Of a stretch of 64,000 bases of DNA, positions 7,374-21,645 are shown piece by piece. The notes beneath the pieces were generated by a model that was not told where the DNA came from, made no database searches, and worked only from the letters and a program-made list of their open reading frames with translations. Numbering within the stretch: the stretch's first letter is position 1; the number at the start of each line of letters is the position of its first letter. The stretch is taken from assembly GCF_004369205.1 (NCBI RefSeq), contig NZ_QFGA01000001.1:992001-1056000 (forward strand). The letters are read 5' to 3'. The DNA is from Pelotomaculum schinkii (GTDB lineage: Bacteria > Bacillota > Desulfotomaculia > Desulfotomaculales > Pelotomaculaceae). Position numbers and translations under genes: made by a program.

Positions 7374-8192
7374 TTATTCATAATCGAAAACTGGCAAAAT
7401 GCTTTGAAGCAATAAACCTCCTCCTATTGCTATCAATAAACTAACTAGAGTACCAATTAAATAGTATTCTGCAAAATCTTTGTTTTTGAGCTCGTTAAAC
7501 CTGGCGATGGATTTTGCAGTAAGAACAAAAGCTACTGCTGAATAGGATCCATAGAGAACTAATGTTAAAATTATTGTTCTTTCAAATATTCCGATATATT
7601 TTCCAATATGATTGGAAGGTTTGATTATTAAACAACCATCTATAACACCTTGATTTTTCTTTGGAAATATCCAGTCAATTACCATCCTAGTTAAAATAGC
7701 GCCACCAAGTGTTATATATAAATATGCAATGACAGTAATTAGGCACTTATTAATAGGGAATATTCTTAGCAGATATTCTTTTTGATTAATGCCTATCTCC
7801 AAGGGAAACAGCCAAGAATAAAAACCCAAAATATTTGGCTCAATATTAAAATCAAATAATTCAATAAATAAAATCACCATATATAAATGGATAATTTGGT
7901 CAACAATAAATATAACCGGACTAAACCATAACTCCTTTTTCTTAACTTTAGAATATAAATAGTTTTTTGAAAAATCGATTAGTAAGTGAAACAAAGTAAT
8001 TAGCAATGAAAGATATAATGCTAGCTTTAGGCCATAAAAGTGAACGGCAAAAAAAGAACAAATAAATAAAGCTATCCCGTGTTTTATAAATCCTTTCCAT
8101 AGTAACTGACTTTTTTCTTCAACAATACGATCGGTTTGAAATAAAAAATCAGCCAGAACATGTGCTAAGAATAACATGTATAAAAAAGTCAT
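7374..8192 (-). CDS. DUF3307 membrane protein
   Basis: A 272-residue polytopic membrane protein. The start, LFLAHVLADFLFQTDRIV, is the hallmark of the DUF3307 family and is followed by about seven more hydrophobic segments, including TLFHLLIDFSKNYLY. Function is unknown in the family. It is AT-rich compared with neighbours. The SatD-type gene lies 45 bases upstream in the same direction; SatD and DUF3307 genes are commonly paired, so they form one unit here and probably act together. Confidence 0.8.
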   Translation of the reverse strand: MTFLYMLFLAHVLADFLFQTDRIVEEKSQLLWKGFIKHGIALFICSFFAVHFYGLKLALYLSLLITLFHLLIDFSKNYLYSKVKKKELWFSPVIFIVDQIIHLYMVILFIELFDFNIEPNILGFYSWLFPLEIGINQKEYLLRIFPINKCLITVIAYLYITLGGAILTRMVIDWIFPKKNQGVIDGCLIIKPSNHIGKYIGIFERTIILTLVLYGSYSAVAFVLTAKSIARFNELKNKDFAEYYLIGTLVSLLIAIGGGLLLQSILPVFDYE

Positions 8193-8236
8193 AAAACCAC
8201 CAGACCTTTCGCCTTGTAGACGGTGAAACCATTAAT

Positions 8237-8869
8237 TTATCCCGTTGAAGGGTGAAATTTTTCTAGATAGGCTTGCGCCTTCGATAATGTTTTTTCAGCA
8301 TGTTTTAGCTGTTTCCACTGAGCTGCCCTGCAACGTTTTTCCACATTCTGCATAGAAATACCTAGAGCCTTCGAGGCTTCTTCATAAGTACCACTCTGTT
8401 CATATTCATTCACAGCTTCCCATTGTTTTACAGTCCATTTCTTTTGAACTGCATCAATTAATAGCCATATACAATTAATAAAAGCATCAAATTCGTTAGT
8501 TCCAGTTTTCGTGATGGTTAAGGCGCCTTTGATTTTTTCAACGTCTTCGAGGGCTGCCCTAGCCAGGTAGAAAGCATTACCATTCATTTTCCAGGAATCG
8601 TCCCGAATTAGTTCCTCTTCTATAAATCCAATGCCTATTCCAACTCTTATCTGAAGTGGGCGACAAAAATATCTGAGGTATCTTATTATCTCAGGATATT
8701 TCAACCATCCCTCTATGACGCCTTGAATTTCATCACCTCTGGATACAGAGAAGGGGGTGATTATTGAAGGCAGCTTTAAAAATTTCAAGCGTTCAATCGT
8801 GGCATCTAAAAACTCTGTATTTTTCTTCGAATTAATTATATCTGCTGTAACTACTGTAATTCTTTTCAT
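8237..8869 (-). CDS. SatD family protein with C-terminal HTH
   Basis: A 210-residue protein. The N-terminal ITVVTADIINSKKN, SRGDEIQGVI and VGIGIGFIEEE segments match the SatD family (named from a Streptococcus acid-tolerance locus). The C-terminus YEEASKALGISMQNVEKRC resembles a sigma-region-4-like helix-turn-helix, suggesting DNA binding. I chose ATG at 8869 because GGGGGG stands eight bases upstream. The divergent dyad at 8901-8924 lies directly before it, consistent with self-regulation (inference). It is followed by the DUF3307 membrane gene. Confidence 0.78.
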   Translation of the reverse strand: MKRITVVTADIINSKKNTEFLDATIERLKFLKLPSIITPFSVSRGDEIQGVIEGWLKYPEIIRYLRYFCRPLQIRVGIGIGFIEEELIRDDSWKMNGNAFYLARAALEDVEKIKGALTITKTGTNEFDAFINCIWLLIDAVQKKWTVKQWEAVNEYEQSGTYEEASKALGISMQNVEKRCRAAQWKQLKHAEKTLSKAQAYLEKFHPSTG

Positions 8870-8887
8870 GTTATTCACCCCCCCTGA

Positions 8888-8924
8888 GGTGACAAAGTTG
8901 ATATCACCCATTATTAGGTGATAT
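8888..8924. promoter_or_regulatory. Candidate operator of the satD-DUF3307 pair
   Basis: ATATCACC at 8901-8908 and GGTGATAT at 8917-8924 form a perfect 8-bp inverted repeat with an 8-base spacer. A third half-site, GGTGACA, lies at 8888-8894, 12 bases off the dyad. All sit within 55 bases upstream of the SatD start, the position of an operator. Confidence 0.6.
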
Positions 8925-10927: not shown

Positions 10928-10970
10928 CAAAAAAAGAGACCTAAAGCAACCTGCTTTAAGCCTCTTTTTG
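10928..10970 (-). terminator. Terminator after the selenoprotein rhodanese gene
   Basis: AAAAAGAG at 10931-10938 pairs with CTCTTTTT at 10962-10969, with an inner TAAAGC/GCTTTA stem. A run of T residues follows on the minus strand. It lies about 30 bases beyond the TAG at 11001, which fits a gene that extends past the UGA at 11133. Confidence 0.75.
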
Positions 10971-11000: not shown

Positions 11001-11969
11001 CTATTGCTCTTTTTCCATCGGCATACTTAAATCCCCGCCCCACTCATAGATGGAGGCTTCATAGTTTCTTACTTTCTCAAAGCCAACGGCCCTGAGGATC
11101 ATGGATGCATATCCAGATCTGATGCCCATAGTTCAGTAAACTATAAAATCATCAGCGGGCTTTACATTATAGGAAGCCATGAGAGTTTTGATCTCTTCAG
11201 GGGTCTTTATGGTACCGTCCTTGTTCAATAATTCCTGCCACAGCAGGTTTACAGCGCCTTTGATGTGGCCTCCCCGCGGCTCCCCTGCATTCTGTGAGCC
11301 TTTAAATTCCCCTTCTGTCCTGACATCAACCAACACTTGCTTGTCCAAATTGTTAAAGACATAATCCTTTGTCGCAATAAAGCTCTGATCATAATTTTTT
11401 AAGACTACACCGGTAACAGGCTTGGGCTGTGCCGCTTCTTTAGTCACCTCATAGCCCATTTCCTTCCAGTAGGATAAGCCCCCAACCAGCATCTTTACAT
11501 TATCCATCCCGGCCAGCTTTAACTGCCAGACGGCTCTGCCGTCAGCGCCCGGCCCCTTAAAGACATCCGAGTAAAACACAACTGTCTTTTTGTTATCAAT
11601 GCCAAGGGATTCCAGCTTCTTTTGCAAATCCTCCTTGTTTTTTACGGTTCCCCAACCCGGATCACCTATTTTACCGGATGTGTCCGAAAAAGCGTTAATC
11701 CCGATACCGATGGCGCCGGGAATATGTCCTGCTGCATAGACATCCGGTTTGTTGCAGTCCAGGAGAACCAGCTCTTCACTTCCTAGCATTGCTTGCAACT
11801 TTTGAGGAGTCATAAGAAAATCATTGTTCTGATAAACCGAGATGTCAAACTCCTTTTGATCTTGCTTGTCTACAGGCGCCGGCTGTTTTCCGCAGCCACT
11901 GGCTCCCAAAACGAGCCCCATGGCAATAAGTGCAACCAACAACTGCTTGTACTTAAATTTCTTCCACAA
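11001..11969 (-). CDS. Selenocysteine-containing rhodanese lipoprotein
   Basis: Thiosulfate sulfurtransferase with two rhodanese domains. TTG at 11969 follows AAGGAGGG; a lipoprotein signal (LLVALIAMGLVLGASGC) puts the mature protein outside the membrane. The N-terminal domain carries the usual inactive loop (VVFYSDVFKGPGADGRAVW). In the C-terminal domain the frame reaches UGA at 11135-11133 exactly where the catalytic Cys belongs: FIVY-UGA-TMGIRSGYASM. Past it, the same frame continues with VGFEKVRNYEASIYEWGG, the normal rhodanese ending, to TAG at 11001. The UGA is therefore read as selenocysteine (inference). Product 322 aa; reading UGA as stop would leave 278 residues and no catalytic residue. 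It overlaps the TVP38 gene upstream. Confidence 0.88.
11101..11129 (-). promoter_or_regulatory. Candidate bacterial SECIS hairpin
   Basis: Starting four bases after the UGA, AUGGGCAU can pair with AUGC-AU-CCAU (two bulged bases), closing an 11-base loop that has G at position 17 counted from the U of UGA. Position and loop G fit the loose bacterial SECIS rule. A second, weaker hairpin slightly further on is also possible. Confidence 0.5.
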
Positions 11970-12666
11970 AAGCCTTTCCCTCCTTAATTTTTTTATCTTT
12001 CCAGACATTCTTTATCAGTACAATCAACGCGCTCAGGGCAAAGAGTATCAAGAGGCCAAAAACCATAGTCCTGACTCCACCTGTAAGCATGCCCCCGACA
12101 TAGGAGTAAACAATTGTCGCCGGCAATTGACCGATTCCGGTAGCGATAAAAAACGGCCAAAAACCCATAGAAGTCAAACCGGCAGCATAACTAACTATAT
12201 CAAAAGAGATAAACGGTAAGAGCCGGGCAATAAGAATGGCATATTTTCCGTAATGCTTGAAAAAATCATCTATGCTCTTAAGCGCTTTGTTGGAAGTGAA
12301 TTTTACTACCGTATCCCTTCCCAGGTACCTGGCAATAAAAAAACATATTACTGCTCCGGCCATCGCGCTTGACCACGAAAGAATCGCTCCATTAACCCAC
12401 CCGAAGATACCGGCATTCGCAAAAGTAATAATGAACGCCGGCAGGGGCGCCGCGATGGACTGAAGGACCATCAAGAGAAAAGAGGTAATTGGCGCCCAGA
12501 CGCCAAAACCCAAAATATAGTCGCGGGCCAGAGCCACATCAACATTGCTTAAAACAAAGATCGCCTGGTTGACGTTAACCCTGATGAAGGGGACAAAATA
12601 ATATAAGCAGCCAAGAATAACCAACAACGATAATTTCCCTAGATATCCGCGAAATATGTTTTTCAT
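11953..12666 (-). CDS. TVP38/TMEM64 (DedA-like) membrane protein
   Basis: A 237-residue protein with about five to six membrane spans. The central FFIARYLGRDTVVKF segment and ILIARLLPFISFDIVSYAAG, with the conserved Arg and Pro, define the SNARE-associated/TVP38 family, whose members are thought to move or scramble lipids. ATG at 12666 is chosen over an upstream TTG because AAGGAGG lies nine bases before it. Its end overlaps the start of the selenoprotein rhodanese gene by 17 bases, so both are likely made from one message. TVP38 and rhodanese genes often travel together. Confidence 0.88.
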   Translation of the reverse strand: MKNIFRGYLGKLSLLVILGCLYYFVPFIRVNVNQAIFVLSNVDVALARDYILGFGVWAPITSFLLMVLQSIAAPLPAFIITFANAGIFGWVNGAILSWSSAMAGAVICFFIARYLGRDTVVKFTSNKALKSIDDFFKHYGKYAILIARLLPFISFDIVSYAAGLTSMGFWPFFIATGIGQLPATIVYSYVGGMLTGGVRTMVFGLLILFALSALIVLIKNVWKDKKIKEGKAFVEEI

Positions 12667-12702
12667 ATACAATCACCTCCTTACTCCGATTCAAGCCTTG
12701 TA

Positions 12703-13707
12703 TTATTTAGTAATGAAGAACTTGGACGGACCGTTTAAAACCTGCCAGCCGGCATCCACGAGGATTTCTCTGCATTTTCCCACATCATAACCACGGCTCT
12801 TCTCCGTATTGTCAACTACATCACGCGGGTTGCTGCCTGCTTCAGCCCAGAGAAGATTGGCCCCTGCCACCGCCCCCATCACGTTAGGTTCATGGGTACA
12901 GTTACCTGGTATCTCTCTTGGTGTCGCCATGCGAACTGCCGCCACAATATGCGCCATACGCGTCTCACCTAACATACCGTGCGCGCTTAAGCTTGTTCCC
13001 GGGATAGTAACACGACGCATTGCCCCGCTGAATCCGGGCTTTGCTTCCCTGGCTACGATCATTTTCTCCACTATTTCCTCATGGCTGTGTTCAGGTCCGA
13101 TGGGTTCCACACACGATCCCAAAATAAGACCTGCTTTGCCGGCGGCTTCGAAGGTCTGGAGCCTGTCTTTGAGGTCAATGCGGGTAACCTTTCCTTCACC
13201 CAGGCGGGCTGCATGATAAACCCCGGTAAAGCCCGCTTTGCGCAAAGCAGCTGCCTCATCATATGAGAAATCGGCAATATTGGCGATTAACGGCACACCT
13301 GTCCGCAGTTCCCGTTGGACTACTTGCCCCATCTCCAGGAAACTTTGGAAGTTCAAATGTGCTGTGGCCATGAGGTAGATGGCATTAGCGCCCGCTTCTT
13401 CCAGGTCGAGAGCCTGTTGAAGAATGAATTCCAAAGACTCTATCCGCTGGGCATTAAAAATTTTATTGCCGGCTGCAAAGGAACAAAAAGCGCAATTACA
13501 GCTGCAGGGCCCGCTGTTCACCCCTACCTGGCCATGTATTTCCGCCTTGCCCGCACAGGCCTCCTCGCTCATCTGACGGGCTTTGTACGCAAGGTAAAAG
13601 GACTCTTCCGAACATATGTCAAGCTCTAATAGTTCCCTGATTTCCTGGCTCTCCAGGAGGGCACCGTTATACGACTTATCAATAATTTCTTTAACCCTCT
13701 TATTCAT
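12703..13707 (-). CDS. BioB-like radical SAM protein
   Basis: A 334-residue radical SAM enzyme. The cluster motif is in GPCSCNCAFCSFAAG (Cys-x3-Cys-x2-Cys), followed by a TIM-barrel with EAGANAIYLMATAH, and ends with the BATS-type segment VTIPGTSLSAHGMLGETR. Overall it resembles the biotin synthase / HydE / HmdB branch. It is not a clear BioB and no biotin genes are nearby, so the product is left open. ATG at 13707 follows GGGTGG. It lies 36 bases upstream of the TVP38-rhodanese pair in the same direction. Confidence 0.8.
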   Translation of the reverse strand: MNKRVKEIIDKSYNGALLESQEIRELLELDICSEESFYLAYKARQMSEEACAGKAEIHGQVGVNSGPCSCNCAFCSFAAGNKIFNAQRIESLEFILQQALDLEEAGANAIYLMATAHLNFQSFLEMGQVVQRELRTGVPLIANIADFSYDEAAALRKAGFTGVYHAARLGEGKVTRIDLKDRLQTFEAAGKAGLILGSCVEPIGPEHSHEEIVEKMIVAREAKPGFSGAMRRVTIPGTSLSAHGMLGETRMAHIVAAVRMATPREIPGNCTHEPNVMGAVAGANLLWAEAGSNPRDVVDNTEKSRGYDVGKCREILVDAGWQVLNGPSKFFITK

Positions 13708-13732
13708 TACGCCACCCTTTTTCGTAAAAGTC

Positions 13733-14677
13733 TCAAGAGATACACTGCCTATCCACGCCCATTCCCCTGTTAGCCAGCCATAAAATGCCCCCATAAAGGC
13801 TGCAGAAGCTTACCAGTGCCGCAAAAAGAAGGGATGCCCCCAGAGCCACGCTCCCTGCCACCCCATAGGAGTCCAGCAGCAACACGTAGGCGCCTTCGCG
13901 TATCCCATACCCGTTAATCCCGATAGGGACCATGGCTATTGCTGAAATCGCAGGTGTTATATAAACCAGGTCCCACCAGCTTAATAAGTCAATATGAAGG
14001 CCTCTAAAAACAGCATAGTTTACAGCTACCACTGTAAGCTGGAACAACACTGACAGGCACAATACCGTGATAATCATCTTTTTCTGGCCGCGTAAAGCAT
14101 GGCCATGTGAGAGAAATCCACGCGCAAAGCCGCTTAAATTGCCACCTCTTCCAGCGGCCCAGGCGGGAATTCGCCCCATCATTAAAAAGAATAATAATCC
14201 TGCCGCCACAATTATGAGCATCATAAAAAGCCAACCCACATGCCAGTTGGAGTCCGTTATTGGGAACACAACCAAACCGGTCAGGGCTAGACCCACGGTA
14301 GCCAGTAAGCGCTCGATTATAACGGAAGAAGCCGCGCCTGCAATATTGGAAATGTTACGGCCGGTCAAAAGAATTCTGATCCCGTCGCCACCGATACTGG
14401 AGGGAAGAAAGTTGTTGAAGAAAATCCCGATCCAGTATACTTTCCACAGTTGAAACCAGGGCAGATTGATGCCCTCCGCCCTTAATATCCGTGACCATTT
14501 TTCGACACTTACAACCATTGAGATAACAATGAATACCCCGGCTAAGAGAAGCCAACCAGGCTCTGCAGTCAGGAAAACGTCCCGCACAGCAATCCAATCA
14601 AAACTGTAAATTAACCAGCTCAATAACAAACCAGATACAACGATCTTTATAAGAAGAATTAAACTTTTCTTCGACAC
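13733..14677 (-). CDS. YbhN/AglD-type flippase-like membrane protein
   Basis: A 314-residue protein of the lysylphosphatidylglycerol-synthase-TM / UPF0104 family. About eight membrane spans are visible, and the family motif FFNNFLPSSIGGDGIRILL is present. Such proteins are often found with glycosyltransferases and are thought to handle lipid-linked substrates. The gene is 25 bases upstream of the radical SAM gene and codirectional, and two glycosyltransferase genes lie within 2.5 kb, so a role in lipid or glycan export is a fair guess. Confidence 0.85.
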   Translation of the reverse strand: MSKKSLILLIKIVVSGLLLSWLIYSFDWIAVRDVFLTAEPGWLLLAGVFIVISMVVSVEKWSRILRAEGINLPWFQLWKVYWIGIFFNNFLPSSIGGDGIRILLTGRNISNIAGAASSVIIERLLATVGLALTGLVVFPITDSNWHVGWLFMMLIIVAAGLLFFLMMGRIPAWAAGRGGNLSGFARGFLSHGHALRGQKKMIITVLCLSVLFQLTVVAVNYAVFRGLHIDLLSWWDLVYITPAISAIAMVPIGINGYGIREGAYVLLLDSYGVAGSVALGASLLFAALVSFCSLYGGILWLANRGMGVDRQCIS

Positions 14678-15493: not shown

Positions 15494-16180
15494 TCATATA
15501 ATAAGTGTTCGTATTTCGATAGATTTTAGAAACCGGATGGTCCTTGCCGGAATTAACTCAATATCTATTTTTTTATTTTCATACTGTCTCATCAAAGCCA
15601 GGAGGTCACCCGGGCGGTCAATATCCATCAAGCATTCCAGAAGTCCATAGGACAATTTGTTCTCTTCACATATTTTTAGAGTTTCTTCCAATACTCTTTC
15701 CGAACCCCAGCTGATACCGTCAAAAACCCTGCCCTGAAAGTTTCGCATTCCAATAAGGCAATAACCGCCGTCGAGCGCCGGTCCAAAAACTAAATCGCTA
15801 TGCTCCAGCAAATAAAGAGCTTTTTGTAAATAAGAAGGCGGCAAGTCCGGTACATCCGTCCCGATAAAAATGACAGGGGCGTGACCGGTTAAAAACAATC
15901 TTTCAGCTATGTCATGCATACGCTGTCCCAGGTTTCCACCGGACTGGGGCATGACCCGCCCGCCAAATTCCAGCTTTTTAGCCAACTTGTTGAGATCGCC
16001 GGAAGGAGTTACAGCCAGATAGCGCTCAAATTCTGTCAGTCTACTTACTTTATCCAATGTATCTTCCAGAAAAGCCCACTGCAGGGCTTCCCGCTGAGCG
16101 GGTGACAGCACCGCGCCCAGGCGGCTCTTACCTTCTTTGGAAGGCGCCCTGGACATGATTGCCAGCGCCGGTTTAAGCAT
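15494..16180 (-). CDS. Glycosyltransferase, rSAM/selenodomain-associated type 1 (TIGR04282)
   Basis: A 228-residue nucleotidyl/glycosyltransferase-like protein (DUF2064). Motifs are KEGKSRLGAVLSPAQ at the N-terminus, IFIGTDVPDLPPSYL and FGPALDGGYCLIGMRN. The family is named for its co-occurrence with radical SAM and selenoprotein genes and is linked to arsenosugar or similar pathways; the substrate is not evident. It is divergent from the TIGR04283 partner at 16245, sharing a 64-base promoter region. The last 35 residues (from about KKIDIELIPAR) look like an extra tail. Confidence 0.85.
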   Translation of the reverse strand: MLKPALAIMSRAPSKEGKSRLGAVLSPAQREALQWAFLEDTLDKVSRLTEFERYLAVTPSGDLNKLAKKLEFGGRVMPQSGGNLGQRMHDIAERLFLTGHAPVIFIGTDVPDLPPSYLQKALYLLEHSDLVFGPALDGGYCLIGMRNFQGRVFDGISWGSERVLEETLKICEENKLSYGLLECLMDIDRPGDLLALMRQYENKKIDIELIPARTIRFLKSIEIRTLII

Positions 16181-16244: not shown

Positions 16245-16937
16245 ATGATTAAGACAAAGCATCCTTTAATAAGCGTAATCATTCCAACTTATAATGAGTC
16301 CGCAACCATTGAGGGAACCCTTGAACACCTGCGCCCCTGGAGCAACCTGATAGAGGTCATTATTGCGGACGCGAGCACTGACGGAACAGCCAATTTGGTC
16401 GGCCGGGATTTTTTACTTATCCAGGCTCCCCGGGGCAGGGCAAGTCAGATGAATGCCGGCGCTCAGCTGGCCGGCGGAGAGGTACTTCTTTTCCTGCACA
16501 GCGACACCCGCCTGCCAAATGACTTCATCCAACAACTTGAGCTGGCATTGTCCGACAGCAGAGTCGTCGGGGGCGCCTTTAAAATGAAAATAGATCACCC
16601 GGGGTTGTTTTTCTACCTGACCACCCTCGGTTCAAATCTGAGGGCCGCTGTCACGGGCGTATATTTCGGCGATCAGACTATCTTCGTGCGGCGGGATTGT
16701 TTCCGGCAAATCGGCGGCTTCCCGCTTATTGATTTATTGGAAGATTGGGAGTTCTCCTTGAGCATGAAAAAGATCGGGAAAACCGTGCTTCTTCCCGGTC
16801 CCGTCAAAACTTCGGCCAGGCGCTGGCTAATCCACGGCAAGTGGAGGACCACATGGCTGATGCATAAAATTAAGGTCCTTTATCTTCTAGGAACCAGCCC
16901 GGCAGACCTAAAGAGGCTGTACTCAGACAGGCGTTGA
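16245..16937 (+). CDS. Glycosyltransferase, rSAM/selenodomain-associated type 2 (TIGR04283)
   Basis: A 230-residue family 2 glycosyltransferase. It has the GT2 start LISVIIPTYNESATIEGTLE, the AAPRGRASQMNAGA-like segment (IQAPRGRASQMNAGAQ), the DxD-like LFLHSDTRLP and LLEDWEFSLSMKKIG. TIGR04283 and TIGR04282 proteins are regular partners, and both lie here within 6 kb of a selenoprotein gene. No strong ribosome site precedes ATG at 16245, so the start is less sure. Its 3' end overlaps the convergent gene by 15 bases. Confidence 0.87.
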   Translation: MIKTKHPLISVIIPTYNESATIEGTLEHLRPWSNLIEVIIADASTDGTANLVGRDFLLIQAPRGRASQMNAGAQLAGGEVLLFLHSDTRLPNDFIQQLELALSDSRVVGGAFKMKIDHPGLFFYLTTLGSNLRAAVTGVYFGDQTIFVRRDCFRQIGGFPLIDLLEDWEFSLSMKKIGKTVLLPGPVKTSARRWLIHGKWRTTWLMHKIKVLYLLGTSPADLKRLYSDRR

Positions 16938-17372
16938 CTTTTTTATCTTTGCGGCTAAAACTAATTCCATAGTCATAGCGGCTGTTGTACCGGTTATTTC
17001 CTTGCACCGGGCATTTTTTAAAGGAGATAACTTTTTCCTGAGCCCGCTGCAGCAGGCCTGGCCAAATTCATTGACAAACCGCTGATGCAGTTTTGCCGCA
17101 GTTTCTGATATCTCCTTATCAAAACCCTTGGTATCGGGATTTGCAAGCAGCAGACTGATAGCCATAACGCCTCCTGTTAAAGCGCCGCAGGCGCAACCGG
17201 CGCTTATGCCGTGACCAAAACCTGCAGCCAGTTGTATTATGCCGTCGGTTTGCCCTTTAAGCATTTCCACGTTGCTCAACGCCACTGCCTGTGCGCAATT
17301 ATAGCCCTGGTTAAAATACATCATCGCTTTGCTGCGTACGTCCTCGCAAACATCCTGATATGCGTCACTCAC
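16923..17372 (-). CDS. C_GCAxxG_C_C family protein
   Basis: A 149-residue redox-type protein. The Cys pattern defining the family is complete: YNCAQAV, then SAGCACGALTGG, ACCSGL and RCKEI. Some relatives carry selenocysteine or sit next to metal-reducing enzymes; the biochemical role is unproven. GTG at 17372 is preferred with GAGG six bases upstream; a TTG at 17384 is the alternative. It converges with and overlaps the glycosyltransferase gene by 15 bases. Confidence 0.85.
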   Translation of the reverse strand: MSDAYQDVCEDVRSKAMMYFNQGYNCAQAVALSNVEMLKGQTDGIIQLAAGFGHGISAGCACGALTGGVMAISLLLANPDTKGFDKEISETAAKLHQRFVNEFGQACCSGLRKKLSPLKNARCKEITGTTAAMTMELVLAAKIKKSTPV

Positions 17373-17686
17373 TAGTATCCTCAACTACTTCCCAAGACGA
17401 ATAGAATCACCCTTAAAACCATTCTTCATTCTAACATGAGTATTTATCATTAATCCAATAACAAATAATTATATAAAAGAACGGCAAGATAATGTTTTTC
17501 AATAGTTCCCCATCGTTTTCTTGACACTGTAACGCAAGCACGCTCACTCCAGATCGCTCTTGGCGGGAAATCCAAACCGTAGTTGCATACGAAAAAAGCC
17601 TTGCTTAGCAAGGCTTTCGCGTTTTTACATGTACGCTGGCATCTAACGTACATTGTTAACCAGAATTAACAACCTACTTAAATCGT
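17373..17686. other. Intergenic region with two hairpins
   Basis: It holds the terminator at 17591-17617 and, between that and the next gene, a hairpin formed by ATGTACG (17629-17635) and CGTACAT (17647-17653). A 67-codon minus-strand frame runs through both hairpins and is not believed. Confidence 0.5.
17594..17617 (-). terminator. Terminator after the ABC permease fragment
   Basis: AAAGCCTTGC and GCAAGGCTTT form a perfect 10-bp stem with a 3-base loop; on the minus strand six T residues follow. Confidence 0.8.
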
Positions 17687-20119: not shown

Positions 20120-21645
20120 CAGTGAACCTCCCCCGCTTGTAGAAGTGGGGGCTTCAGGGAGCTTACCGGTAAGAATTTCTGGCAGCAACCTGTTCAGGTA
20201 GCCTCATCCACAAAGGATGCTTTCCTTCCTGCCGATTCTCCCGACAACAATGGTACAAACGGCTTTTGCCTCCCATCGGGCCCGGTTCCAGGCTTCTACT
20301 ACTTTCTACTTCTCACGAAGCAGGCCGTAGATACTTGATGTTTTCGACACTCCAATCCAGTGTTCGAATCTCGCCATATTTGTGCTTGGCGTAGATATTC
20401 CTTGCGCCATGCACATCCCGATGGGATATGTACCCGCAATGACACTGATACGTCCTGCCGGAAGGCTTTTTCTTCCGACCACAGACAGGCCATGTCTGCG
20501 TAGTGTAACTCTCATCAATCTTGATCAGGTCGATACCAAGAGCAGCCAGCTTGTATGTAAGATAAGCCTGCAACAACCCGAATGGCCATTGGCTCATCTT
20601 TTGGTTTAAGCCGCGGGAATGACGTTTCTGCTTAAGGTTTTTCTTATTGCGCCTGGACGTGTTCCTTTGCACGCCCTCTACGTCGCCGACTACGACCGTT
20701 TTGACGCCCTGGTCGTTGGCCCAGGCGACAAACTTGTGGCTCATCTTGTGCAAAATGTCCCGCTGCTGGTTGTCCGTCTTGCTGCCTATGCGAGCAATGG
20801 CACAGGTGTATTTCTTCCACTTCCGGCTGCCTTTTTTGCACCGGCTGCGCTTTTGGTATATTTCCTTGAATTTCTTGTTGCGCAGCCGTTTGACGCTGCG
20901 CAGTTTCCGGGATGTGACAACCAACGCCTCACCCGTGTCGGCTACAGCGGCAATCCCATGAATTTCGCCCATATCGATGGCGGCGATGCCTCGATTGAGG
21001 TTTTCCCGGGGCTGGGTACCATCATCGTAGCTTATCGCCAGTATCAGCTTGCGGTCCCAGACAAGTTCAATCTCTTTGACTTTTCGTGGAGGGATGCGGT
21101 GGACGTGAACAATGATAGGTTTCTCCCGTTTACCGTTGTGGATGCCCATGGATAGCTCGATCTTGCCGTTAGGCTGGATGGTGAAACCGTCTTTTTTCCA
21201 CCGGGTCGGGTAATTCTTTTTCTGCCGCCATGGGTAGCGGACATGTCCATGCCCTGCTTGTTTGGCTCTGTTGGCGTTGGTCCTGGCATCCAGGTAGCGT
21301 TCCTGCACAGCTTGGATACTCTGGCTATGCATATGATACCGACCCTTAGTAAGTTTTTGCAAGTCACTCTTGCCGATCCACTTACCGTTGGTTTTGTGGT
21401 ATTCCCTGGCATAGTTGAGGCAGTCGTTCCATGCTTTTGCCGATTCCCGGTTGCAGGCAAACAATCTGTCCATCTCGTGTTTTGATGTCCGGAAAGTGGT
21501 CTTAAGAACGCGGATCATACCTTTTCACCTCTTTTTATCGCGTATCGACCACTTTCATTGTACCACAAAATGCCAACGATTGAAACATATGTTCTGGGGC
21601 AGTAACCGGCATTCATCCCCCACTTTGGAAGTGGGGTCTTCTGCC
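20120..21645 (-). mobile_element. IS200/IS605-type element, TnpB only
   Basis: A TnpB gene is flanked by end hairpins of the IS605 kind. One end has CCCCC and GGGGG arms at 20130-20151, the other CCCCACTT and AAGTGGGG at 21618-21636. No TnpA (HUH transposase) frame is present, so the element would need a TnpA from elsewhere to move. Exact borders cannot be fixed without an empty site. By analogy with known elements, the 3' end of tnpB and the end hairpin (about 20120-20350) should encode the guide omega RNA. Confidence 0.75.
20313..21518 (-). CDS. tnpB: TnpB RNA-guided nuclease-like protein
   Basis: A 401-residue TnpB. The RuvC-type acidic residues are visible in AAIDMGEIHGIAAV (Asp), VVGDVEGVQRN (Glu) and HRDVHGARNIYA (Asp). 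The zinc ribbon is altered: the usual T-CPxCG reads TQTWPVCGRKKK, so the first Cys is Trp, while VCG and YQCHCGY keep the others. Family members are guided by an omega RNA to cut DNA at empty donor sites. ATG or GTG near 21518 with GAGG upstream is fine. Whether the Trp disables zinc binding is unknown. Confidence 0.88.
   Translation of the reverse strand: MIRVLKTTFRTSKHEMDRLFACNRESAKAWNDCLNYAREYHKTNGKWIGKSDLQKLTKGRYHMHSQSIQAVQERYLDARTNANRAKQAGHGHVRYPWRQKKNYPTRWKKDGFTIQPNGKIELSMGIHNGKREKPIIVHVHRIPPRKVKEIELVWDRKLILAISYDDGTQPRENLNRGIAAIDMGEIHGIAAVADTGEALVVTSRKLRSVKRLRNKKFKEIYQKRSRCKKGSRKWKKYTCAIARIGSKTDNQQRDILHKMSHKFVAWANDQGVKTVVVGDVEGVQRNTSRRNKKNLKQKRHSRGLNQKMSQWPFGLLQAYLTYKLAALGIDLIKIDESYTTQTWPVCGRKKKPSGRTYQCHCGYISHRDVHGARNIYAKHKYGEIRTLDWSVENIKYLRPAS

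Follow-up and report, generated by a model that had tools for sequence, protein, structure and literature searches.

A rhodanese gene of Pelotomaculum schinkii almost certainly encodes a selenoprotein in which an in-frame UGA is read as selenocysteine (Sec). The gene lies on the minus strand at 11001-11969 of the window, by which we mean the whole 64,000-nucleotide stretch of DNA that was analysed. Taken as a whole, our observations are best explained by a Sec-containing rhodanese that would be a surface lipoprotein, transfer sulfane sulfur and have a YdjZ-type partner; we put the probability of this reading at roughly 0.7. Such use of Sec in a surface-anchored, sulfur-handling enzyme appears to be shared by various anaerobic bacteria, and in most of them a gene for the same kind of membrane protein lies alongside.

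The reading frame and its UGA

Read through the UGA, the frame runs from a TTG start to a TAG stop (11001-11003, minus strand) and encodes 322 amino acids, which the Pfam Rhodanese model matches in two stretches (115.2 bits). The UGA (11133-11135, minus strand) stands between FIVY and TMGIRS, where the C-terminal rhodanese domain has its catalytic residue, and is aligned with a Cys of relatives. It is followed by 43 codons (11004-11132, minus strand) that include the end of this domain. The initial annotation had placed the UGA exactly at the active-site Cys and had carried the frame on for 43 codons to a normal rhodanese ending, and both statements hold. The terminator that it placed beyond the TAG also has a counterpart, a strong hairpin at 10931-10969 (minus strand; -23.2 kcal/mol, z -4.1) whose 3' arm is rich in U; it is not among the entries of a consensus scan. 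The TTG at 11967-11969 is likely the start codon. An AAGGAGG lies 9 nt upstream, as judged by eye, and two relatives (L051 and L054) have ATG at the same site. An alternative ATG at 12006-12008, upstream of the TTG, is also in the open frame.

The openness of the tail is by itself weak evidence, and the case for read-through therefore rests on conservation. At the G+C content of the window, 43 open codons after the UGA have a chance probability of about 0.11, and long open frames of the window contain 12 further TGA codons. A chance open frame was rejected on conservation, not on openness. We also rejected UGA as a general sense codon, because it terminates eight other long ORFs among the 40 called in the window. 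Two further features of the window are recorded here. A 401-residue ORF that ends in TGA at 20313-20315 (minus strand) has 50 open codons beyond it, and a DUF3307 gene adjoins a SatD-family gene at 7374-8911 (minus strand).

The genome contains adjacent selA and selB genes, a tRNA-Sec (selC) above the family cut-off, and selD. An absence of this machinery, named in the initial annotation as a case against the assignment, was thus not found. The selD gene (L157, G000:C1:1112651-1113571) has its own in-frame TGA (FSG-U-AAK) and represents a second selenoprotein in this genome. The presence of selB proved useless as a discriminating test within the order, since it holds for 109 of 113 genomes, including the 11 UGA carriers.

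Conservation of the UGA among relatives

Among 113 genomes of the order, 38 have a match to the Sec-rhodanese. A TGA lies inside 12 copies in 11 genomes, P. schinkii included, all with at least 54% identity, and the matches at 43% identity or lower have none. The copy in one genome (G021) is interrupted and was matched in pieces. A single TGA-free match in G019 (57% identity over 44 residues) was dismissed as a counterexample; it is a decayed remnant without an active site, a 44-codon C-terminal tail of a Sec-type rhodanese (L171, 435-566, minus strand, on G019:C36), and a second, intact copy with the UGA is present in G019. In a sample of 398 genomes of the phylum, searched with a cut at 1e-40, 18 genomes gave 20 matches. 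The TGA is present in four of these, all at 72% identity or more, and missing from the other 16, whose identities do not exceed 41%.

The comparison was then extended to a set with one genome for each species. Among the best 80 of 128 related stretches, the catalytic column holds UGA at 41 loci, Cys at 35 and Asp at three, and one row (L116) could not be placed. The motif UTMG[IM]RS is present in all 42 UGA copies, the window's included, and CTxGIRS in all 35 Cys copies. The UGA is followed by 41 codons in 37 copies, 43 in four and 40 in one. No UGA-type copy with TAA or TAG in place of the UGA was found among these best 80 of 128. Close relatives that all end at this codon, the other case named against the assignment, were not found either: the relatives keep the UGA and the 41-codon ending. 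Alignment of the extended protein with the Cys homologues, which had been proposed as a check, puts the UGA in the column of the catalytic Cys. Counts on the 41 Sec loci exclude L154, a second contig of the assembly that yielded L098. Loci L051-L067 and several of L077-L143 come from the same genomes fetched twice, and their counts were not summed. The three Asp relatives (L140, L151 and L153), which carry DTAGVR[SA], are all from Synergistota and form one branch in the tree; they are probably a non-catalytic offshoot.

In a maximum-likelihood tree of 79 rows, 40 of them Sec (the interrupted copy L112 and L154 were left out), the Sec rows fall together on one side of a branch with a support of 94/92, just below the level that the program marks with a star. 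The split between Sec and non-Sec rows is present as a branch in 200 of 200 bootstrap trees. The Sec rows come from four phyla, Bacillota, Actinomycetota, Fusobacteriota and Thermodesulfobacteriota, and no Cys row lies inside the Sec clade in this tree, which was drawn from the best 80 of 128 stretches. Both forms occur in one genome in Sporotomaculum syntrophicum (L083 with Sec, L117 with Cys), and Romboutsia sedimentorum likewise has both (L097 and L148).

The RNA downstream of the UGA

A bacterial SECIS is a hairpin right after the UGA with a conserved G early in its apical loop. Two tandem hairpins follow the UGA in the window, both on the minus strand. Hairpin 1, a SECIS candidate, occupies 11097-11119 (nt 17-39, counting the U of UGA as 1); hairpin 2, at 11076-11096 (nt 40-60), has a loop that opens with an invariant G49 and may be part of the signal or an alternative SECIS. 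The invariant GG at nt 22-23 and G49 match the SECIS loop rule if the loop is drawn accordingly. The initial annotation had fitted a single hairpin to the bacterial SECIS. A structured and synonymously constrained stretch is indeed present, but it contains two hairpins, either of which is a candidate.

Synonymous sites in this stretch are strongly constrained in the Sec loci. At conserved residues in codons +1 to +20 (13 codons, 41 Sec loci), normalised synonymous entropy is 0.457, compared with 0.815 in the stretch before (10 codons) and 0.808 in the stretch after (13 codons). The same stretch in the 35 Cys loci gives 0.831 (7 codons). The mean folding energy of nt 13-60 is -18.8 kcal/mol in the Sec loci versus -8.6 kcal/mol in the Cys loci. 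When synonymous codons drawn from the same gene serve as the null, the mean folding z is -4.0 in the Sec loci, with 41 of 41 at -2.2 or below, and -0.24 in the Cys loci, with two of 35 below -2. With the Cys relatives as a control, the synonymous entropy and the resampling rule out the RNA signal as a by-product of protein conservation.

The pairing itself is also conserved. In the two hairpins, 91.3% of the alignment cells pair, against at most 46.7% when the structure is slid along the alignment. Columns 24 and 31 hold AU in 24, UA in six and CG in four of 39 distinct rows, and are unpaired in five. Of five covariation measures, three are higher than in every one of 500 shuffles; the other two are not. 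RNAalifold alone keeps 11 of the 18 pairs, namely those of the lower stem in hairpin 1 together with the majority of the hairpin 2 pairs. Where Tyr precedes the predicted Sec (codon 11136-11138, minus strand, in the window), as it does at 40 Sec loci, its codon is always TAC; before the Cys of the Cys relatives, TAT occurs 18 times and TAC 16 times. A context effect of TAC on UGA decoding is possible.

Predicted structure and surface anchor

An AlphaFold model built from 31 sequences (pLDDT 91.7) shows a two-domain rhodanese. Residue 279 of 322, the predicted Sec, is located between a strand (275-278) and a helix (283-295). The catalytic residue is in the second domain, in a CX4R-type loop with Sec for Cys; this loop has six residues, U-T-M-G-I-R (UX4R). 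The first rhodanese domain lacks a Cys at the equivalent position (SDVFKGPGADGR), and this N-terminal domain is structural. Among solved structures, thiosulfate and mercaptopyruvate sulfurtransferases match best, ahead of YnjE and EanB.

The protein starts with a signal peptide that carries a lipobox-like LGASGC, with Ala and not Leu at position -3. The lipobox Cys (11892-11894, minus strand), the expected site of the lipid anchor, is nearly invariant as C26 in an alignment of 31 proteins from which L156 was left out. A lipobox-like pattern is present in 36 of the 41 Sec loci, three of them doubtful; the lipobox Cys is absent in L113-L115. The Sec-rhodanese is very probably an exported lipoprotein outside the membrane, judging from these sequence features.

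Several existing names were considered for the protein and rejected, as its scores are below the NCBIfam cut-offs. It scores 95.9 bits with the 3-mercaptopyruvate sulfurtransferase model NF008557 (cut-off 250), 46.7 with ExtH (200), 34.3 with TsoB (805), 32.1 with rhodanese_LYCAU (115) and 56.3 with rhoda_near_glyco (145). Three relatives (L058, L062 and L064) likewise stay under these cut-offs. Since the window protein stays below the cut-off of every NCBIfam model (release 20.0), automatic annotation is likely to end such genes at the UGA.

A YdjZ-type membrane protein as neighbour

The gene for a VTT/DedA membrane protein (11953-12672, minus strand) overlaps the rhodanese frame. Its product is 49.8% identical to Escherichia coli YdjZ over 223 residues (E 8e-76). 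The rhodanese itself is 28.8% identical to E. coli YnjE (E 8e-24), a protein with three rhodanese domains, and ydjZ and ynjE both lie within ydjXYZ-ynjABCDEF. In 36 of the 41 Sec loci, the gene immediately upstream, in the same orientation, is a VTT gene; this strong link agrees with the TVP38/VTT association pointed out in the initial annotation. The exceptions are L088, which is at a contig end, and L097, L099, L101 and L109, which are not. Next to Cys-type genes, VTT is upstream in four and downstream in 12 of 35 loci, and it adjoins none of the three Asp loci. On account of these identities and this linkage, the core of the locus resembles a YdjZ-YnjE pair with Sec in the rhodanese.

Other parts of the E. 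coli gene group are rare here. No match to YnjBCD-type ABC transporter genes was found within 17 kb around the window gene, and YnjB-like genes lie near two of 42 Sec genes. These two loci (L090 and L094, from Tepidibacter formicigenes and an Acidaminobacter MAG) have YnjB-like, YnjF-like and ABC-transporter genes nearby, like the E. coli ynj operon. The YnjB-type binding protein at the T. formicigenes locus scores 482.8 bits (cut-off 203). According to the available text of a study on FNR, ynjE is directly activated and ydjXYZ-ynjABCD appears in the same table of FNR-regulated operons (PMC3688515). E. coli YnjE is described, in the accessible part of another report, as having no detectable thiosulfate:GSH activity and an unclear substrate (PMC10215317). 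As far as the available texts go, DedA-rhodanese fusions are known in another DedA subfamily, COG0586 (PMC10127716), and a Clostridium perfringens protein has been named YnjE (PMC12989499). The literature searched, which included few subscription papers, gave no description of the rhodanese-YdjZ pair or of its link with the cluster described below.

An arsenosugar-type cluster in some lineages

Further genes follow in the window. A BioB-like radical SAM protein, in the place of ArsS, is encoded at 12703-13794 (minus strand; Radical_SAM 24.7 bits, cut-off 29.5; bioB 45.2 of 225), and a flippase-like protein resembling the LPG synthase TM region at 13733-14677 (minus strand). They are accompanied by genes for a TIGR04282 (DUF2064) transferase (15494-16180, minus strand; 179.7 bits, cut-off 134), a TIGR04283 glycosyltransferase (16245-16937, plus strand; 235.8 bits, cut-off 182) and a C_GCAxxG_C_C redox protein (16923-17384, minus strand; 70.9 bits, cut-off 47.4). 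NCBIfam names TIGR04282 and TIGR04283 arsenosugar biosynthesis glycosyltransferases. A locus was counted as a cluster if at least three of TIGR04282, TIGR04283, C_GCAxxG_C_C and flippase-like genes were nearby. Of the 41 Sec loci, 13 qualify, among them that of the window, as do 13 of the 35 Cys loci. The other 28 Sec loci have fewer than three of the four genes, several of them on short contigs.

The radical SAM gene of the cluster comes in two kinds. With matches of at least 40% identity, ArsS is present in nine of the 26 cluster loci, the BioB-like gene in 14, neither in three and both in none. The exclusion is not absolute, since L067, fetched separately with the genomes of the order, holds pieces of both. 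ArsS (TIGR04167) has no match above the cut-off in the whole window genome, where the best hit has 46.8 bits (cut-off 300). The relative L058 has ArsS (433.8 bits) and the AhpD-like TIGR04169 protein (200.7 bits). BioB-like genes are carried by the window, L077, L078, L081, L083, L084, L092, L105, L108, L120, L123, L124, L127 and L142. The window protein is far under the BioB and PylB cut-offs, and the BioB-like proteins of these clusters may be a family of their own, going by their sequences. The link with a BioB-like radical SAM gene, singled out in the initial annotation, is real, but it is local, part of a larger cluster and seen at 10 of 42 Sec loci. On this count, the gene was rejected as a general partner.

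Discussion

We propose the following mechanism. The structured stretch just after the UGA would direct its reading as selenocysteine and yield a two-domain rhodanese, which would be exported and lipid-anchored outside the membrane. Its selenolate may take sulfane sulfur from an outside donor, such as polysulfide, thiosulfate or a persulfide, hold it as a selenosulfide and then pass it on. The initial annotation spoke of a perselenide intermediate; with a sulfur donor, a selenosulfide (Se-S) is to be expected instead. Because the YdjZ-type DedA gene is the standing upstream partner, we propose that in anaerobes the two proteins together deliver sulfane sulfur, or a product formed with it, to the membrane or through it. 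The pair would be a Sec counterpart of YdjZ-YnjE, an orphan pair in E. coli, and in some lineages, the window's among them, it appears to have been built into an arsenosugar-type cluster. From sequence, sulfane-sulfur transfer by the Sec-rhodanese is probable, and a direct action with the YdjZ-type protein is somewhat favoured.

The codon could still be a plain stop, the product a shortened protein without the catalytic residue and the tail a remnant. UGA does end other ORFs of the window and the open tail is unremarkable, but the same UGA with the same ending recurs in four phyla, at 41 of the 80 named loci that were retained as the best of 128, with TAA or TAG never in its place in a UGA-type copy of that set, and the synonymous sites after it are frozen and the RNA folds. 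We regard a plain stop as extremely improbable. If the UGA is read as Sec, the chemistry may differ from the one proposed. The protein could belong to an arsenosugar-type pathway, for instance as an enzyme that thiolates or reduces an exported product containing arsenic or a sugar, as the 13 Sec and 13 Cys cluster loci and the occurrence of ArsS and the AhpD-like TIGR04169 protein among the neighbours would suggest. This is unlikely: 28 of the 41 Sec loci, several of them on short contigs, have fewer than three of the four cluster genes, while VTT remains next to the rhodanese gene at most Sec loci. In addition, ArsS does not score above its cut-off anywhere in the window genome, and the UX4R pattern of the active loop differs from the CX5R pattern of Acr2-type arsenate reductases.

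A role as a general thiol/selenol redox enzyme or as a selenium carrier that handles selenite or perselenide, rather than as a sulfurtransferase, seems quite unlikely to us. Ogasawara in 2001 reportedly described that rhodanese can carry selenium as perselenide, and Ledgham in 2005 is said to have linked DedA with selenite resistance, both of which would fit a carrier. In the available text of a further report, the rhodanese ExtH lies within a selenite/tellurite operon (PMC5877670). The motif U-T-M-G, however, has no second redox residue, and the ExtH match is far below its cut-off. The sulfur-transferring lipoprotein with a YdjZ-type partner remains our preferred reading. A bolder extension of it, which we consider speculative and improbable, is an obligate-selenium surface relay for sulfur or selenium, in which the Sec-rhodanese would be loaded with a sulfane atom on the outside and pass it to the YdjZ-type DedA protein. 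In the lineage of the window, this relay would feed a glycosylated product, and its radical SAM step would have moved from ArsS, with arsenic, to a BioB-like enzyme, which may insert the sulfur so supplied. If true, it would provide a biochemical role for YdjZ and YnjE, and arsenic chemistry would have been swapped for sulfur within one kind of cluster.

Sec-rhodaneses have so far been listed as motif classes, as far as the available texts go. Here one of them is a defined clade, predicted to be exported, with Sec in 42 of 42 UGA-type copies over four phyla and mostly beside a YdjZ-type DedA gene. Through this pairing, the function of ydjXYZ-ynjABCDEF in E. coli becomes open to experiment, and it raises the question of why selenium is used for such sulfur chemistry.

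Comparison with known systems

Acr2/Cdc25-type arsenate reductases or phosphatases have a seven-residue CX5R active loop, which the loop U-T-M-G-I-R does not match. The two-domain thiosulfate and 3-mercaptopyruvate sulfurtransferases share the fold, the two domains and the six-residue C-terminal loop with the window protein, which differs in its predicted Sec and export and in its 95.9 bits against a cut-off of 250.

The class as such is not new, as the initial annotation had allowed. In the portions of the sources available, a COG2897-type rhodanese selenoprotein was first predicted in 2005 from three sequences (PMC1088965), predicted rhodanese selenoproteins are tabulated as forms 1-5 (PMC13188914), and form 4, with two domains, is called COG2897 (PMC9312934). 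Since the class has been predicted since then, the protein described here is a well-bounded variant of known Sec-rhodaneses, unless form 2 or 4 is the same clade. Forms 1-5 likewise have the UGA at or near the active site, and forms 2 and 4, which could be compared by motif only, also have UxxG. A lipoprotein, a YdjZ link and an arsenosugar-type cluster are absent from the published descriptions of these forms, so far as the accessible text extends.

The window resembles the arsenosugar biosynthesis cluster in its TIGR04282 and TIGR04283 genes above the cut-off, and relatives have ArsS and TIGR04169; it differs in that a BioB-like radical SAM gene takes the place of an ArsS over the cut-off. 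With the YdjZ-YnjE pair of E. coli, the locus shares a YdjZ-type DedA gene beside the gene of an exported rhodanese, YnjE being periplasmic in the available text of its description (PMC10215317). Compared with YnjE, the rhodanese of the window has a predicted Sec in place of Cys, is a putative lipoprotein and has two rhodanese domains.
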